Shown here: positions 5,916 through 13,872 of the stretch, in pieces
Layout: every line of letters starts with the position of its first letter
How positions within the stretch are numbered: position 1 is the stretch's first letter
Assembly (NCBI GenBank): GCA_007745835.1
Contig: CP036424.1
Coordinates: 1,387,001 to 1,451,000, forward strand
Reading direction: 5' to 3'
Length of the DNA: 64,000 nt
From: Planctomycetes bacterium MalM25
GTDB lineage: Bacteria > Planctomycetota > Planctomycetia > Pirellulales > Lacipirellulaceae
Made by a program: the position numbers and the translations under genes
Notes under the pieces: model-generated
Database searches by the model: none
Told to the model about the DNA's origin: nothing
Seen by the model: the letters and a program-made list of their open reading frames with translations, nothing else

Positions 5916-8855
5916 ATGCGTGGGCGGATCGGCGGAGTCGGGTCACCCGTTTGGATTTCTACGGCGCTTATCGCGCTGTTGCTGCTGTTCTCTGGTCCGG
6001 CCCTGGCGGCCGAGGCCGTTGACCCGGCCGTCGAGACGGCGCCGGTTGAGGAGGCCCCGACTGCGGAGTCCCCCGCCGCCCAGACCGCGGGCGACGGCGC
6101 CCAGACCAAGGCGCTCGTCTGCTGGGCGATCGCTTTCGGCGCGGCGTTCATCGCGTTGGTGCAGGCCAAGCGGTTCTACGACACGATGATCGCCGCCGAC
6201 CCCGGTTCGGAACGCAATCAAGAGATCGCCGGCTACGTGCGCGACGGCGCCAACGCCTATCTGCAACAGCAGTACCGGGTGGTCGCCGCCTTCTTCCTGG
6301 TGGTCGCCGCGCTGCTGGCCTGGGCCGCCTTCGGCCTGAAGGTGCAGAGCCAGTTCGTCCCCTTCGCGTTCCTCTCCGGCGGGTTCTTCAGCGGCCTGGC
6401 GGGCTGGTTCGGCATGAAGACCGCCACCGCCGCGAGCAACCGGACCGCGGCGGCCGCGGAGAAGTCGCTCAACCAAGGCCTGCAGGTCGCCTTCCGCAGC
6501 GGCGCCGTGATGGGGCTGACGGTCGTCGGCCTTGGCCTGATGGACATCACCCTCTGGTTCGCCTTCCTGTACTGGGTCTGGCCGGCGGCCGGCATGGAGC
6601 CGCTGTCGCTCAGTGAGATCACGGTCACGATGGTCTGCTTCGGCATGGGCGCCAGCGCTCAGGCGCTGTTCGCCCGCGTGGGCGGGGGCATCTTCACCAA
6701 GGCGGCCGACGTCGGCGCCGACCTCGTGGGCAAGGTCGAGCAGGGCATCCCCGAGGACGACCCCCGCAACCCGGCGACCATCGCGGACAACGTGGGCGAC
6801 AACGTGGGCGACGTCGCCGGCATGGGCGCCGACCTCTACGAGTCGTACGCCGGCTCGATCCTGGCCGCGTCGGCGCTCGGCGCCGCAGCGTTCGTCAACC
6901 CGGCCCTCGCGCCGGACGGCTGGACCGCCAGCCAGGCGCAGCTCTCGGCGATGCTGCTGCCGCTGGTCATCGCGGGTTTGGGCATCCTGCTGTCGATCTT
7001 CGGCATCTACCTCGTGAAGACCGGCGAGGACGCGAGCCAGAAGGCGCTGCTCCACGCCCTCGACCGGGGGATCAGCCGGGCGACCTACCTGGTGATCCTC
7101 GCCGCGATCGCGGCCGCCTACTTCCTGATGCCTTCGGCCGCCGGCACCTCGATCTTCGGCATCCCGGGCGTGGCGTTCAGCGTCGTGTTCGGCGCGGCGG
7201 CGGGCGTGATCATCGGCAAGTGGACCGAGTACGCCACGTCCGACGAGTACGCGCCAACGAAGCGGCTCGCCGATCAGGCGGTCACCGGCCCGGCGACGAT
7301 CATCATCGGCGGCGTGGCCGACGGCATGATGAGCGTGTGGGCGCCCGTCGTGGTCGTCTGCTTCGCGACGATGCTCTCGTTCGGCGCCGCCACCGGCTTC
7401 GACTTCGCGAACGTCGACCTCTTCTCGCTCGGCCTGTACGGCGTGGGCATCGCGGCGGTCGGCATGCTGAGCACCCTCGGCATCACCCTGGCGACCGACG
7501 CCTACGGCCCGATCGCCGACAACGCGGGCGGCAACGCCGAGATGTCGGAGATGCCCCCGATCGTCCGCGAGCGGACCGACGCGCTCGACAGCCTCGGCAA
7601 TACCACCGCGGCGACGGGCAAAGGTTTTGCGATTGGTTCGGCGGCGCTGACGGCGCTCGCGCTGCTGGCCGCGTATGTTGAGGGCGTGCGGGTCGGCTTC
7701 GATCGCTGGGCGCAGGACTTCGCGGCGACGACGGTTGCCGAGCAGGGCGACGAATTTAAAAATGGTGTCTATAAGTTGTCCGATCAGTTTGTCGTTTACA
7801 TTGAGAGTGATGACGCTCTTGTGACTCGCCCCTACATGATCATGCCAGCGCAACTGCAGACGCGACGGTGGTCAGCCTCGCAGCGTGAACTCACCGATGC
7901 CTTTGGGGGACTGGCCCAATCGCGACTAGACGCTTGGCGATCCCTGCCGGTTGGGTCACGCGTTGAAGAGGAGCCAACAGATGGCGCTGAGAAAGAGCGG
8001 CAAAGGCAGCAGTTCCTCAAGGAGTTGTGGGACGATGATTTTTCTGAAGGCCGAACAGAATCAGACCTAGCAAACAGTAGTGGTCCGGGCGAGTTCGCCG
8101 CTAGATTCCTGGCGAGTGCAGATGTCATAACAAAATCCATGGAAGCTGCGCCGCTGCTAATGGTGGCGGATGACGGACGAGGCGTCGCGTTCATTTCATC
8201 AATTTTGCTTCCGCCGGCTCACTTGAAGCCGCTCGCAGAGATGACCCTCCCCGACTTCAACATTTACTACGACGCCACGCTGATGAACCCGAAGGTGCTC
8301 ATCGGCATCTTCGCCGGGGCGATGGCGACCTTCGTGTTCTGCGCGATGACCATGAAGGCGGTCGGCCGCGCCGCGCAGGGCATGGTCGAGGAGGTCCGCC
8401 GGCAGTTCCGCGAGAAGCCGGGCATCATGGACGGCACCGAGAAGCCCGACTACAAGAGCCCGGTCGCCATCAGCACCGTGGCGGCTCAGGCGGAGATGAT
8501 CGGGCCCTCGCTGCTTGGCTTGCTGCTGCCGGTCGCCGTCGGCATGACGCTCGGCGTAGCGGGCGTGCTGGGCCTCTTGATGGGCACCCTCACATGCGGC
8601 TTCTGCGTGGCGGTCTTCATGTCCAACTCGGGCGGATCGTGGGACAACGCCAAGAAGTACATCGAGGCGGGCGCCCACGGCGGCAAGGGGACCGAGGCCC
8701 ACAAGGCGGCCGTCGTCGGCGACACGGTCGGCGACCCCTTCAAGGACACCAGCGGCCCGAGCCTGAACATCCTGATCAAGCTAATGAGCATGGTCAGCGT
8801 CGTGGTCGCCGGCCTCGTGGTCCGCTACAGCCTCGCCTCGCTGGGGTGGTTCTGA
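5916..8855 (+). CDS. hppA: Membrane-bound ion-pumping pyrophosphatase with large inserted loop
   Basis: This 979-residue integral membrane pyrophosphatase couples PPi hydrolysis to H+ or Na+ export. The ATG at 5916 has a strong ribosome site GGAGAAGGA 6 nt upstream, and a signal-like N-terminus is followed by a Pro/Glu/Ala linker. Family signatures include [11 protein letters not shown] (near residue 265), [28 protein letters not shown] and [15 protein letters not shown]. In [14 protein letters not shown] the Ala and Gly positions are those of K+-dependent enzymes; K+-independent ones have Lys and Thr there. The protein is longer than the usual 650-800 residues because of a segment at residues about 590-770 (DNA about 7700-8220). 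The middle of that segment is visibly richer in A+T and uses different codons from the rest. It falls in the TM12-TM13 connection, expected on the extracytoplasmic side. Pumped ion unknown. Confidence 0.93.
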
Positions 8856-8861
8856 GGAAAG

Positions 8862-8949
8862 ATGATAGAGGGCAGATGGCAGATGGCAGAGGATAGGGGG
8901 TATTTAGCGAACCTATCCCCTATCCCCTATCATCTGCCATCTATCCTCT
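8862..8949. repeat. Imperfect inverted repeat after hppA
   Basis: Repeats of GGCAGATGGCAGA and GGATAGGGG on the left are mirrored by CCCCTATCC and CATCTGCCATC on the right, with the centre near 8905. It follows the hppA stop by a few bases. It may act as a transcription end structure or belong to a dispersed intergenic repeat. No U-run follows it. Confidence 0.5.
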
Positions 8950-9419: not shown

Positions 9420-12155
9420 ATGGCAACCGACCAGCGGCTCCGCCGCGAGATCGACGAACTCGGCCGCGCTTTTGGCGATACCGTCCGGCGGTTCGCGGGT
9501 GAGCGGGCGTTCGAGCTCGTTGAGCAGGTCCGCGGGCTGGCCCGTCAGTTCTGCGGCGGCGAGCTCGCCGCGGCGGACGAGATCGACACGCTGCTCCGCG
9601 GCCTGACCGCCGACGAGCTGCGGATCGTGATCCGCTCGTTCGGCACGTTCCTCGAGCTGGCGAACCTCGCCGAGGACCGGCAGCGGGTCCGCTCGCTGAT
9701 CGACCGCGAGCGCGAGCGGCACCCCGACCCGCGCAAGGAATCGATCCTCGACGCCGTCCGCACGCTCAAGCAGCAGGGCGTCGGCGACGACGCGATGCAG
9801 GCGCTCGTCGACCGAGTGCGGATCGAGCTGGTCTTCACCGCCCACCCTACCGAGGCGAAGCGGAAGAGCATCCGGGCGAAGCTCCGCACGCTACGCGAAC
9901 TGCTCGGCCAGATCGACGCCGCCACGCAGACGCCCCGCGAGGAGGAACGGCTCCGCGAGCTGGTGCGGGGCGAGATTGTCAAGCTCTGGCAGACCGACAT
10001 CATCCGCGCAGCGCGGCCGACCGTCCTGGAAGAGGTGCAGCGTGGCCTCTCGTTCAAGGGCGTCATCTGGGACACCGCGCCGCGCATCCTCGGCGAGCTG
10101 CGCGACGCGCTCGCCGAGGTTTACCCCAAGGTCACCCTCGCCGACCGCGGGCTACTCCGCTTCGGCTCGTGGATGGGCGGCGACCGCGACGGCCACCCCT
10201 ACGTCACGCCCGACATCACCGAGCAGACGCTGCACTGGCTCCGCTCGGCGGCGATCGAGCGGCACTGGGTCGAGTGCGACCGGCTCACGACCTCGCTGAG
10301 CGTCTCGGTGCGGCAGTCGCCCGCCTGCTCCGACCTGTTCGAGCCGATCGCCACGGCGTGCGCGAAGTGGCCCGAGCTGGTGAAGATCCTCGAACCGATC
10401 CCGCCGATGGAGGCGCCGCGGCGTTGGCTGCGGGTCATCGGCTGGCGGCTGGAGCAATCGGCCGACGCGTCGCCCGACGAGCCCGACTCGCCCGCCGCTT
10501 ACGGCGAGGCCGACGAGCTGACGGCCGACGTCGCCCTCGTCCGCGACGCCCTGCTCGCCGCAGGCGACGACGAGGTGGTCCGCGCCGAGGTGCAGCCCTG
10601 GCTCGACCAGATCGCCACGTTCGGCCTGCACATGGCCTGCCTCGACGTGCGGCAGCACTCGGGCATGTACGCCGACGTGATGCTCGAGCTGTGGCGGGCC
10701 ATCGGCACGGTCGCCCCCGACGAGGAGCTGACCGAGGAGCGACGCTGCCAGCTGCTGGTCGACACGCTCCCGATCGCTGCCAACATCGCCCCGGTCGGCC
10801 TCTCCGACACCGCGCAGGAGACGCTCCAGCTCTTCCGTGTCCTGCGGCGATCGGCCCGCCGGTACGGCGGCGACTGCCTCGGCGGGCACGTCATCTCGAT
10901 GACCACGCAAGCGAGCGACCTGCTCACGGTGTTATGGCTCTGGACCTGGAGCGAGCGGGTCGATGGCGGCCAGCCCGAGGACGCCTCGCTCCACCTGCCG
11001 GTGATCCCCCTCTTCGAGACGATCGACGACCTCGTCGCGGCGCCGCAGATCCTCGGCCGCGCCCTCGACACGCCCGCCTACCGCGAGCACGTCGCCAAGT
11101 GCGGCGACCGGCAGACGGTCATGATCGGCTACTCCGACAGCACGAAAGACGGCGGCTACCTCTCCGCCGCCTGGTCGCTGCAGAGCGCGCAGATCACGCT
11201 CCACGAGCTGGCGAAGAAGGAGGGGGTCGCCCTCACCTTCTTCCACGGCCGGGGCGGCTCGCTCGGCCGCGGCGGCGGGCCCGCCGCGCGGAGCATCCTC
11301 TCGCTCCCGCCGGAGACCTTCGCCGGCTCGCTCCGCCTCACCGAGCAGGGCGAGGTCCTCGCCGAGCGGTACGACGACCCGGCGATCGCGCACCGGCACC
11401 TGGAGCAGGTCGTGTGGGCGGTCCTGATCGCGGCGACGGCGCCGCCCCCCGACCCCACCAGCGCCTACCGCGACCAGATGCAGCGGATGGCGGACGCGTC
11501 GCTCGCGGCGTACCGCGAGCTGGTCACGCATGCCGACTTCACCAAGTTCTTCCGCCTCGCCACGCCGATCAGCCAGATCGAGAACCTGCCGATCGGCTCC
11601 CGCCCCGCGAAACGGAAGAAGGGGGACGCGATCGAGGACCTCCGCGCCATCCCGTGGGTCTTCTCCTGGACCCAGAGCCGCTGCCTCCTGCCGGCGTGGT
11701 ACGGGCTGGGCTCGGGGCTGTCGGCATTGATCGACGCCGGCGGCGCCGAAACGCTGCAAGCGATGTACACCGAGTGGCCCTTCTTCCGCGCGACGATCAA
11801 TAACGCCGAGCTCGCCCTCGCCAAGGCGAACCGCCCCGTCTTCGACCGCTACGCCCAGTTGGCGAACGAGCTGCCCGGCGCCGCGGAGATCATCCAACTG
11901 CTCGACGACGAGTTCGAACGCTCCTGCCAGACGCTGCTGGCGGTCACCGGCCGCGACGAGCTGCTCGACGGCACGTCGTGGCTCAAGGAATCGATCCAGG
12001 TCCGCAACCGCTACGTCGACCCGCTGAACCTGATCCAGCTGGAAGTGACCCGCCGCCTCCGCGAGTCGGGCGACGAGGGGCCCACCGAGGAGCTCCGCCA
12101 CCTCTCGCAGCTCTCCATCAAGAGCGTCGCCGCAGGGATGCGGACGACGGGGTAG
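9420..12155 (+). CDS. ppc: Phosphoenolpyruvate carboxylase
   Basis: This 911-residue cytoplasmic enzyme converts phosphoenolpyruvate and bicarbonate to oxaloacetate, replenishing the TCA cycle. Signatures include FTAHPTEAKRKSI with the catalytic histidine (near residue 142), GSWMGGDRDGHPYVTP, GYSDSTKDGGYLSA, FFHGRGGSLGRGGGP and the C-terminal VRNRYVDPLNLIQ. Length fits bacterial PEPC. It starts with ATG at 9420, after the palindrome. No adjacent gene shares its pathway, so it is probably a single-gene unit. All key residues are present. Confidence 0.95.
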   Translation: MATDQRLRREIDELGRAFGDTVRRFAGERAFELVEQVRGLARQFCGGELAAADEIDTLLRGLTADELRIVIRSFGTFLELANLAEDRQRVRSLIDRERERHPDPRKESILDAVRTLKQQGVGDDAMQALVDRVRIELVFTAHPTEAKRKSIRAKLRTLRELLGQIDAATQTPREEERLRELVRGEIVKLWQTDIIRAARPTVLEEVQRGLSFKGVIWDTAPRILGELRDALAEVYPKVTLADRGLLRFGSWMGGDRDGHPYVTPDITEQTLHWLRSAAIERHWVECDRLTTSLSVSVRQSPACSDLFEPIATACAKWPELVKILEPIPPMEAPRRWLRVIGWRLEQSADASPDEPDSPAAYGEADELTADVALVRDALLAAGDDEVVRAEVQPWLDQIATFGLHMACLDVRQHSGMYADVMLELWRAIGTVAPDEELTEERRCQLLVDTLPIAANIAPVGLSDTAQETLQLFRVLRRSARRYGGDCLGGHVISMTTQASDLLTVLWLWTWSERVDGGQPEDASLHLPVIPLFETIDDLVAAPQILGRALDTPAYREHVAKCGDRQTVMIGYSDSTKDGGYLSAAWSLQSAQITLHELAKKEGVALTFFHGRGGSLGRGGGPAARSILSLPPETFAGSLRLTEQGEVLAERYDDPAIAHRHLEQVVWAVLIAATAPPPDPTSAYRDQMQRMADASLAAYRELVTHADFTKFFRLATPISQIENLPIGSRPAKRKKGDAIEDLRAIPWVFSWTQSRCLLPAWYGLGSGLSALIDAGGAETLQAMYTEWPFFRATINNAELALAKANRPVFDRYAQLANELPGAAEIIQLLDDEFERSCQTLLAVTGRDELLDGTSWLKESIQVRNRYVDPLNLIQLEVTRRLRESGDEGPTEELRHLSQLSIKSVAAGMRTTG

Positions 12156-12186: not shown

Positions 12187-12230
12187 CGGAGAAGGGGATG
12201 GGGGGATGAATGGAGATGAGGGGGATGGCG
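12187..12230. repeat. Left arm of 44-bp imperfect inverted repeat
   Basis: This purine-rich 44-bp tract (12187-12230) matches the reverse complement of 12984-13026 with about six differences. The two arms bracket the low-GC gene at 12289-12783. G-rich GGGGATG tracts are common between planctomycete genes, so chance similarity is not excluded. Confidence 0.55.
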
Positions 12231-12288
12231 GTTTGGTGGGGCCGAACACTGCCCAGGACGACGCACCTGTGCAGGTTAGCGTCAAAAA

Positions 12289-12783
12289 TCACTTTCCATT
12301 ATCCGCCCAGTAAGCTGTCCCAGCGGGCATGTCCCACGAAGAAGGCAATGCGTCTGAAATACTGTTTGTCCACCTCTTGCCCACGTCGTAGTAGTCGATG
12401 TACTTCCGAGATGATTCAGGTGGTTCCTTAGTAATCAGTCTGACCCTGCGTGCTGTCAATTGATTTATTGACTCGCCACCAATGTTGTTCGACGAATCAA
12501 CAGCGAATATGCCTATCGAACCAAGCGGCGGATAAGGAGCGACGTAGCCATAGACTTCCAATATCCCATGGTCATCTGTAACTCCGTAGCAAACTTGAGG
12601 TTGCGGGTGGCCAACCTGATTCAAGATCGCTACGACTTTAGCCATCCGGACAGGTTTGCCCGATTCATCTTGAACCGTAACAGTCACTCGCACACGGACT
12701 GACCACCAGATCAAAAGTAGTGTGGCGAAGACGGCAAGACACGCCCAAAGGCTTATTCTTCGTCTGCTTAAAATACTAGGCAT
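12289..12783 (-). CDS. Low-GC membrane-anchored protein with regulatory-like beta domain
   Basis: From the ATG at 12783 this is 164 residues. An upstream in-frame start at 12954 would add a poorly structured leader and is less likely. Residues about 10-32 (SLWACLAVFATLLLIWW) form one membrane segment. Residues 33 onward (VRVTVTVQDESGKPVRMAKV) look like a carboxypeptidase-regulatory or transthyretin-like beta domain outside the membrane. I recognise no specific function. Its base composition is clearly more A+T-rich than ppc upstream and the gene downstream, and the gene lies between inverted repeat arms at 12187 and 12984. Together these suggest acquisition. It converges on ppc. Confidence 0.6.
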   Translation of the reverse strand: MPSILSRRRISLWACLAVFATLLLIWWSVRVRVTVTVQDESGKPVRMAKVVAILNQVGHPQPQVCYGVTDDHGILEVYGYVAPYPPLGSIGIFAVDSSNNIGGESINQLTARRVRLITKEPPESSRKYIDYYDVGKRWTNSISDALPSSWDMPAGTAYWADNGK

Positions 12784-12983
12784 CTTCCAGAGCTCTCCAT
12801 CTAAGAAGACAAGCGACACCGACCCGAATAACCTCACATAGGCAAGACCCACTCCCCTGATTCTAGACCGATCCCAGCATGCCTCGAAGTGAGTAAGGTG
12901 TGACTCTCCTTGTGTCTTGAACCGATCGACCGTCGGTCTGCTCCTTTCACGCACTCAGCCTGCGACATTTCGCCCCACCTGGT

Positions 12984-13026
12984 CGCCATCCCCCTGATCC
13001 CCAATCATCCCCACATCCCCCTTCCG
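12984..13026. repeat. Right arm of 44-bp imperfect inverted repeat
   Basis: This C-rich 43-bp tract is the partner of 12187-12230, at about 86 percent identity after reverse complementing, including identical 12-bp outer ends (AGGGGGATGGCG). The intervening DNA is about 750 bp. Confidence 0.55.
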
Positions 13027-13069
13027 AAAGTCGGCCCCAACGTAGGCCTCCCCAGCGAGAGAAATCCCC

Positions 13070-13711
13070 TTGGCGATTCTGTACGAAGCGGTCCTCGTGG
13101 CCGCGTGGTTGTTGGCCGTTTGTGGGCGGGGCGTGGTGACGCCACCGGAGGGCGGGGCCCTCAGCGCCGTCTTGCTGCTGGGGATCGGCTGGTGGCTCTG
13201 GTCGGAGATGGCCTCCCGCCGCGAGGTGGACCGCGGCCGGCGGCTGTCGCTCGGCCAGTGGTGGGGATTCGACGCGGCCGTGCGGCACGCGGCCACGCCG
13301 CTGGTGATCGGCGGCTGCCTGGCGGTGGTGGTGTGGGCCTCGATGCGGGCAAGCTTCGACGTGCGTCTAGGCGGCTACGGCGCCCTGCTCGTGCTGTTCA
13401 CCCTGATCGTGATGGCCGCGAAGCTCGTGGCGGAGACCTACCTGTTCGCCCAGATCGGCGGCGACGAGTCGCCCCGCCAGGCTTCGGCCCAGGCGCTGAC
13501 CGGGCCGCTCTCGAAGTGGGCCAAGCTGCGGTACGTCTTGGGCGTGTTCGGCGGGGTGATCCTGCCGTTGGGCGCGCAGATGCTCGCCGGCGGGGCGAAG
13601 AATATCCCCGCGGTCTCCGACGCGAGCGCCCCGGCGCTGGTGGCGACGATCGCACTGATCAGTCTGATCCCGGGCGAGATGATCGAGCGGTGGCTCTTCT
13701 TGCGGACGTGA
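13070..13711 (+). CDS. Multi-pass membrane protein, DmsC/NrfD-like anchor fragment
   Basis: This 213-residue protein is mostly hydrophobic with about six membrane segments. No ATG is available: the frame is closed by a stop at 13043 and the best start is TTG at 13070. The C-terminal half (KWAKLRYVLGVFGGVILPLG and then LIPGEMIERWLFLR) resembles the C-terminus of DmsC-type quinol-oxidising anchors, which usually have eight helices and about 280 residues. The protein therefore looks N-terminally short. No catalytic (DmsA) or iron-sulfur (DmsB) partner is nearby. It may be a degraded remnant or a stand-alone membrane protein. The family call is inference from the C-terminal pattern. Confidence 0.5.
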   Translation: MAILYEAVLVAAWLLAVCGRGVVTPPEGGALSAVLLLGIGWWLWSEMASRREVDRGRRLSLGQWWGFDAAVRHAATPLVIGGCLAVVVWASMRASFDVRLGGYGALLVLFTLIVMAAKLVAETYLFAQIGGDESPRQASAQALTGPLSKWAKLRYVLGVFGGVILPLGAQMLAGGAKNIPAVSDASAPALVATIALISLIPGEMIERWLFLRT

Positions 13712-13737: not shown

Positions 13738-13872
13738 CGAAGTAACGACGAGGCAGCATCCTGTAGGAGGCGTCTCCGACGCCGATCACGTGCTGTCAGC
13801 ATGGAGCGGCTGGCAATCCGGAATCGGCGTCGGAGACGCCTCCCACAGGCATTGATTCTCGTCGCTTCTTCG
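13738..13872. repeat. Nested inverted repeat element
   Basis: Inner arms 13761-13786 and 13823-13848 match over 25 of 26 bp. Outer arms 13738-13752 and 13858-13872 match over 13 of 15. Each inner arm contains its own small palindrome (GGCGTC, 3-nt loop, GACGCC). The element fills most of the 338-bp gap between the DmsC-like gene and the GH57 gene. It looks like a dispersed REP/MITE-type element. Confidence 0.7.

Follow-up and report, generated by a model that had tools for sequence, protein, structure and literature searches.

Mobile insertion cassettes (MICs) and MITEs are built of two inverted ends that bracket either a passenger gene or no gene. They encode no transposase and are presumed to be moved in trans. 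The element described here lies next to ppc in the window, which is the whole 64-kb stretch of DNA that was analysed, and it likewise has two inverted ends, a passenger gene and no transposase inside. It shares with MITEs the terminal inverted repeats and the copies dispersed through the genome. It differs from both classes in that its ends are iterated short words (GGGGAT), in that its relatives have no target-site duplication and interiors that differ completely between copies, and in that a single enzyme has been linked to the ends, GxxExxY, a PD-(D/E)XK protein of about 130 amino acids.

Other described repeats share some of these properties. REPINs are dispersed and persistent inverted doublets with a spacer, maintained by the gene of a cognate protein (PMC3116915), and RAYT genes are flanked by the repeats (PMC3733652). 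The GGGGAT elements are also dispersed, persistent inverted pairs with a candidate cognate gene; however, the consensus of 33 GGGGAT arms contains no GTAG tag, the pairs enclose whole genes, and the candidate enzyme is predicted to be Cas4-like rather than a HUH tyrosine transposase. A parallel with regard to the enzyme is offered by the hupL MITEs of Thiomargarita, for which derivation from an insertion sequence with a PD-(D/E)XK_2 nuclease has been proposed (PMC4853749), so that MITE-like elements are linked to a PD-(D/E)XK protein in both cases. In contrast to the GGGGAT family, that nuclease is of the YhgA type, the MITEs have 19-bp inverted and 10-bp direct repeats with no iterated words, and no coevolution test was found in their description. 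Iterated words are known from the TAACTGA heptamers of Beggiatoaceae, Cyanobacteria and Bacteroidetes, which are intergenic, also occur inside essential operons, are patchily distributed and have no known mechanism (PMC4679880). The GGGGAT arms resemble them as patchy, intergenic and operon-internal iterated words, but the heptamers are described as direct repeats of one word only near start codons, not inverted pairs around genes.

The cassette next to ppc

The preliminary description of this DNA proposed inverted arms at 12187-12230 and 12984-13026 around a single low-GC gene adjacent to ppc. The arms are real and lie within a few bases of the best alignment, 12194-12242 against 12972-13020 (49 nt, 84% complementary, 729 nt apart). 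This pair is the top inverted repeat with arms less than 2 kb apart in a self-comparison of the window (53.6 bits, E 3e-7), the runner-up, in a GC-rich stretch, scoring 41 bits, and conservation of the right arm extends outward to about 13032. The low GC and the neighbourhood were likewise borne out: GC is 0.530 over 12187-13026 and 0.495 over the cargo ORF counted from its likely ATG, compared with 0.674 for the window, 0.711 for ppc and 0.709 for the next ORF, and the cargo ORF is the sole long ORF between the arms (Table 1).

Table 1. Features of the cassette and its neighbours (positions in the window)
Feature	Position	Strand	Remarks
ppc (phosphoenolpyruvate carboxylase), left neighbour	9420..12155	+	Pfam PEPcase, E 4.8e-279
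Left arm	12187..12242	+	iterated GGGGAT/GGAGAT words; G-rich strand inward; R1 match (E<=0.01)
Cargo ORF	12289..12954	-	221 codons if read from GTG; the more likely start, an ATG at 12783, gives 164 aa
Right arm	12972..13032	-	inverted copy of left arm; R1 55.2 bits
Right-neighbour ORF	13070..13711	+	conserved in part immediately downstream of ppc in three cassette-free congeners

The cargo had been described as a membrane-anchored beta-domain protein. Its structure model, of low confidence (pLDDT 57), has an N-terminal helix followed by strands, and the sequence has a weak match to Big_1 (E 0.015, under the Pfam cut-off); both are compatible with a predicted N-terminal membrane helix and beta strands, which is a fit and not a proof. 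A search of the order's 295 other genomes yielded no convincing homologue of the protein; the three other matches (E 0.007-0.01) each cover at most 77 residues. Among 72,556 plasmid records, tblastn matched none.

Downstream of ppc, all three congeners (G001, G002 and G003) have no detectable arms and no such gene, and a homologue of the right-neighbour ORF follows ppc within 280-345 bp; the empty sites that the preliminary description had suggested looking for are thus present. The alternative it had raised, that the gene is conserved at this locus in relatives, does not hold, and the cargo was rejected as a conserved ppc neighbour because it is present in its own genome only. Judged by the congeners, the window cassette is a lineage-specific insertion.

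The GGGGAT arm family

Each arm is an iteration of a short word, GGGGAT. A BLAST search with the 840-bp stretch returned 20 further matches elsewhere in its own genome (G000), nearly all of them within the arms, and the stretch and each arm match copies all over the 4.72-Mb genome. A sequence-only arm model, R1, was built from 33 arms (set A1, 34 arms less L018); the window arms belong to the training set, and the family had been found by BLAST before R1 was made. The consensus has eight columns that are invariant across the 33 arms. At E<=0.01, R1 has 46 matches in the genome of the window, while the congeners G001, G002 and G003 have 60, 62 and 2, respectively; beyond the genus there are 22 in G013 (same family), 22 in G034 (another family) and one in G027, with none in the remaining 32 of 39 genomes. 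At E<=1e-4, nine of 296 genomes of the order are R1-positive.

The arms are arranged in a directional manner. Strong arms that neighbour each other within 1.5 kb form 50 pairs, and in 48 of these the two arms are opposed so that their G-rich strands read towards the interior; the two exceptions are one back-to-back pair between adjacent elements and one tandem pair. The element of the window conforms to the family, with two inverted R1 arms, the G-rich strand inward, and a cassette-free site in congeners. From fetched loci, 70 arm-pair elements were assembled, of which 54 measure 129-303 bp and hold no evident gene. The other 16, all above 380 bp, span 405-1112 bp. Fourteen of these 16 hold an ORF of at least 70 aa, so copies with other cargo, another expectation of the preliminary description, do exist and are of several unrelated kinds: the contents include DUF4082 (presumably PEP-CTERM-like), DMP19, DUF695-RraB, Rce1-like protease, HEAT-like and GxxExxY proteins as well as orphans, all mutually unrelated. 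Interior GC is 0.48-0.57 in the cargo-bearing cassettes first measured, compared with 0.62-0.68 for their loci. Many of the gene-less elements of about 256-285 bp (L023, L015 and L032, for example) have a small central hairpin, such as GGCAGTCGCTACGCGACTGCC, whose sequence varies and whose position is similar.

The longest ORFs of the long pairs include no transposase of the families searched. Target-site duplications, which the preliminary description had proposed as a check and which are expected of MITEs, were found in none of 52 elements, the mean longest direct repeat being 3.71 versus 3.80 in shuffled sequence; this comparison and the left-right matching used the pairs whose arms both reach 15 bits, which removed 18 of the 70. 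No excision or transposition product of the cassettes was seen. Within an element, the duplex energy between the left arm and the right is slightly better than for shuffled arms (fraction 0.014 and 0.012), and left-right similarity within an element has a z of 3.05. Within-element matching is only slightly above shuffled, which argues against an RNA hairpin as the main function of the arms, although this role is weighed again below. The mobile or non-autonomous cassette with cargo that had been proposed is supported by the dispersed arms, the varied contents and the empty site, from which we infer movement itself.

Persistent sites with changing contents

Many elements occupy orthologous sites in different species, and one recurs at its orthologous position in G013, which belongs to another genus. 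Over 15 orthologous-site comparisons, mean identity is 0.78-0.79 in the flanks, 0.73-0.74 in the arms and 0.43 in the interiors (shuffled, 0.36). Since random left-arm pairs have an identity of 0.63, the higher value at orthologous sites indicates that many sites are old and inherited, not freshly inserted. At one site shared by G001 and G002, DMP19 (143 aa) in one genome faces DUF695-RraB (252 aa) in the other, with both arms and their inner extensions alignable. A second G001/G002 site has a 112-aa ORF versus an Rce1-like gene (188 aa), and the last codons of the Rce1-like gene appear to remain in G002. The right flank at the DUF4082 cassette site of G000 differs from that of G001 and G002, which limits the comparison of exchanged cargo to these two genomes. 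As far as the alignments tell, sites persist between species and their contents are replaced.

One operon-internal site lies in what we take, from the flanking protein sequences, to be an ATP synthase gene pair. The left flanks of four docking sites in G001 and G002 (L104, L175, L146 and L179) adjoin another repeat, GGCGAGCCGGCCACGTNAGTGGTCGGTG, and at one of them the inverted half of this repeat is found beyond the opposite end, which gives the impression of an element placed at the centre of a palindrome.

GxxExxY genes and their flanking arms

GxxExxY is the only repeated cargo in GGGGAT arms, with one such pair per genome. In G000, G001 and G002 the pair lies between two genes that we take, from their sequences, to be rpoB and rpoC, and in G034 a GxxExxY gene at a different locus is surrounded by GGGGAT arms. 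The gene of G000 (G000:C1:4448785-4449174) scores 141.5 bits with TIGR04256, for which the cut-off is 35. The rpoB-rpoC gap is 78-134 bp and has no GxxExxY in five other genomes (G003, G005, G007, G009 and G015). At the same position in G013, a stretch of about 990 bp (L136) contains the remnant of a GGGGAT arm and an ORF for a small membrane protein, as well as a frame resembling four-helix-bundle (23S intervening-sequence) proteins beside iterated TTTGCAAT words.

GxxExxY genes were present in 48 of the 59 genomes examined, with one to fourteen per genome, and inverted flanking repeats are a general property of their loci. An inverted repeat of at least 30 bits was found in the 200-bp flanks of 23 of 30 first loci, compared with none of 60 shifted controls. 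Over all 90 loci, a set that leaves out L198 and L214, 72 have an inverted repeat of at least 30 bits and 81 one of at least 26 bits; the other nine have none of at least 26 bits. The repeats are made of iterated short words, with an autocorrelation peak at lags of 8-10. The words seen include CACRGAG, CGCAAAG, CGCCAAG, CACGAAT, CGCAGAT and CACGACG, and GGGGAT fits the same plan. A further copy in G000 (L217, G000:C1:2740982-2741326) has an in-frame stop, as do several copies elsewhere, and these stops suggest turnover of the genes.

The CGCCAAG family was followed with its own arm model, R2 (set A2, from which two of 20 arms were dropped), in seven genomes chosen for carrying GxxExxY of the CGCCAAG clade and in G003. 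The seven genomes have 38, 64, 43, 58, 89, 21 and 19 matches, and G003, a genome without GxxExxY, has none. Fifteen CGCCAAG stretches were fetched; six contain a single ORF of 104-312 aa between paired arms, and others contain short pairs. On this sample the CGCCAAG family repeats the GGGGAT pattern, single genes included.

Correspondence between arm word and GxxExxY phylogeny

Arm similarity is correlated with protein identity (Mantel rho 0.384 for 3114 different-genome pairs; permutation maximum 0.135), and the correlation persists for pairs of less than 60% identity (rho 0.246; permutation maximum 0.148). The test used the 81 loci with an inverted repeat of at least 26 bits. In a tree, the four GGGGAT-armed GxxExxY proteins, one of them from another family, form one exclusive clade with a support of 0.999, and the other clades largely share words of their own. 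A protein search of 296 genomes placed the closest GxxExxY proteins (at least 61% identity) in G000, G002, G001, G106 and G034, all of them arm-positive; G106, which was found after the correlation test and had previously been unseen, has GGGGAT arms.

The same word accompanies related proteins in other phyla. GGGGAT/GGAGAT words lie on both sides of the GxxExxY gene in two MAGs, one from the Nitrospinae (69% identity) and one alphaproteobacterial (58%), a Nitrospinota MAG (58%) has GGAGAA/GGGGAA words, and in another MAG (58%; L336) there are GGAGAT words with a downstream array in the same orientation, not inverted. Where identity is 42-57%, in relatives from Pirellulales, Verrucomicrobia and Bacteroidota, the words are different or absent. 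G083, a congener of G034 and G106, carries a relative at 53% and is absent from the listed R1 matches. Some arms occur without a close protein: G013 has 22 arm matches (E<=0.01), and G003, G042 and G057 have two each, with no close GxxExxY, which for G013 means at E<=1e-30. Taken together, these comparisons show that the arm word tracks the phylogeny of GxxExxY, both inside the order and beyond it in other phyla. Part of the correlation could reflect the physical linkage of arms and gene, and to that extent GxxExxY might be mere cargo.

The GxxExxY protein

The candidate driver is a protein of about 130 aa that matches PDDEXK_3 with an E of 3e-41. D70, E80, K82, Q94 and Y98 are invariant in all six aligned proteins of the GGGGAT clade and its relatives; they comprise the catalytic D and ExK of PD-(D/E)XK nucleases and a QxxxY pattern. 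The structure model (pLDDT 91, pTM 0.85) has its best match in 4ic1 (Foldseek E 4.7e-5, Z 10.1, rmsd 3.7, 102 aligned), an entry titled SSO0001 that we take to be a Cas4. The closeness of the model to a Cas4 protein suggests that GxxExxY is probably a small Cas4-like nuclease. No solved structure related to GxxExxY by sequence was found. A limited literature search yielded no text tying the family (TIGR04256/PDDEXK_3) to repeats or mobility; two papers mention GxxExxY by name, neither of them dealing with repeats, the texts found describe no role for it, and the matches listed for the arm motif look unrelated by title.

Proposed mechanism and alternative explanations

The reading favoured here, which is reasonably probable, is that the window cassette is a non-autonomous element whose GGGGAT arms are recognition sites of the cognate GxxExxY nuclease encoded between rpoB and rpoC. 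GxxExxY would bind and cut at the arms, with each clade recognising its own word in inverted arrays, and double-strand-break repair or transposition would then copy a cassette into a new site or swap its contents. The orphan gene of the window may have been captured by copying or exchange between arms. Elements lacking the nuclease, including that of the window, would be non-autonomous, and the arms of G013 and G003, which have no close nuclease, would be remnants. Since there are no target duplications and contents are replaced at fixed sites, repair-based exchange fits better than cut-and-paste transposition, and the lineage-specific cassette at ppc shows that new sites are gained as well.

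The alternatives differ in what is thought to move or maintain the arms. That a conventional transposase (DDE, HUH/RAYT-like or serine) has escaped notice and moves the arm elements, with GxxExxY as one cargo among others, is rather unlikely, although it would account for the many unrelated genes carried by arm pairs and for the arms of G013 and G003 that have no close GxxExxY, and the linkage of arms and gene makes part of the correlation expected. Against it stand the lack of any match to the transposase families searched among the longest ORFs of long pairs, the change of word with GxxExxY clade across about 90 loci and across phyla, and the recurrence of GxxExxY, alone among the cargoes and once per genome, in GGGGAT arms. 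Selection on the arms as host RNA or DNA elements, such as intergenic hairpins or protein sites in operons, with drifting interiors and cargo acquired by chance, would explain why arms are better conserved than interiors at the 15 orthologous sites, why some sites are operon-internal (rpoB-rpoC, for example), and why left and right arms pair slightly better than shuffled ones; the TAACTGA heptamers in Beggiatoaceae operons have been read as regulatory (PMC4679880). This explanation is nevertheless distinctly improbable given the patchy distribution (nine of 296 genomes), the empty ppc site in congeners and the whole unrelated genes at the same docking site of sister species, and it leaves the correlation with nuclease phylogeny unexplained. 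The preliminary description had itself raised the possibility of a general G-rich intergenic tract, complementary by chance. The arms are indeed G-rich and other G-rich repeats exist, but the eight invariant columns and the directional pairing make this exceedingly improbable, and the orientation count led to its rejection.

A broader proposal can be made, although only tentatively and at somewhat less than an even chance: the cassettes may constitute an undescribed mobile class in which a Cas4-like GxxExxY reads clade-specific inverted word arrays and single-gene contents are exchanged among genome-wide sets of fixed docking sites, with several populations side by side in each genome and nuclease-plus-arms units passing between phyla. 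Such a class would exchange cassettes with minimal means, needing neither a transposase nor an integrase. The tie between GxxExxY phylogeny and flanking words provides a concrete and testable function for a widespread protein; if true, it would explain the origin of many low-GC orphan genes that stand singly in the intergenic regions and operons of planctomycetes, and it may also be relevant to further iterated-word repeats that lack an explanation, TAACTGA among them.

Other repeats in the window

Three further repeats were observed in the window. The inverted repeat 252-294/1223-1262 lies in a GC-rich, coding-looking stretch. An inverted repeat at 8867-8949, just after an ORF ending at 8855, has 36-nt arms (83%) that are 11 nt apart and consists of iterated GGCAGAT/CTATCCC words; it looks like a further word-type element. 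At 13756-13849 there is a palindromic repeat of about 90 bp with the core GGAGGCGTCTCCGACGCCGAT, which has dozens of copies in G001, G002 and G007.
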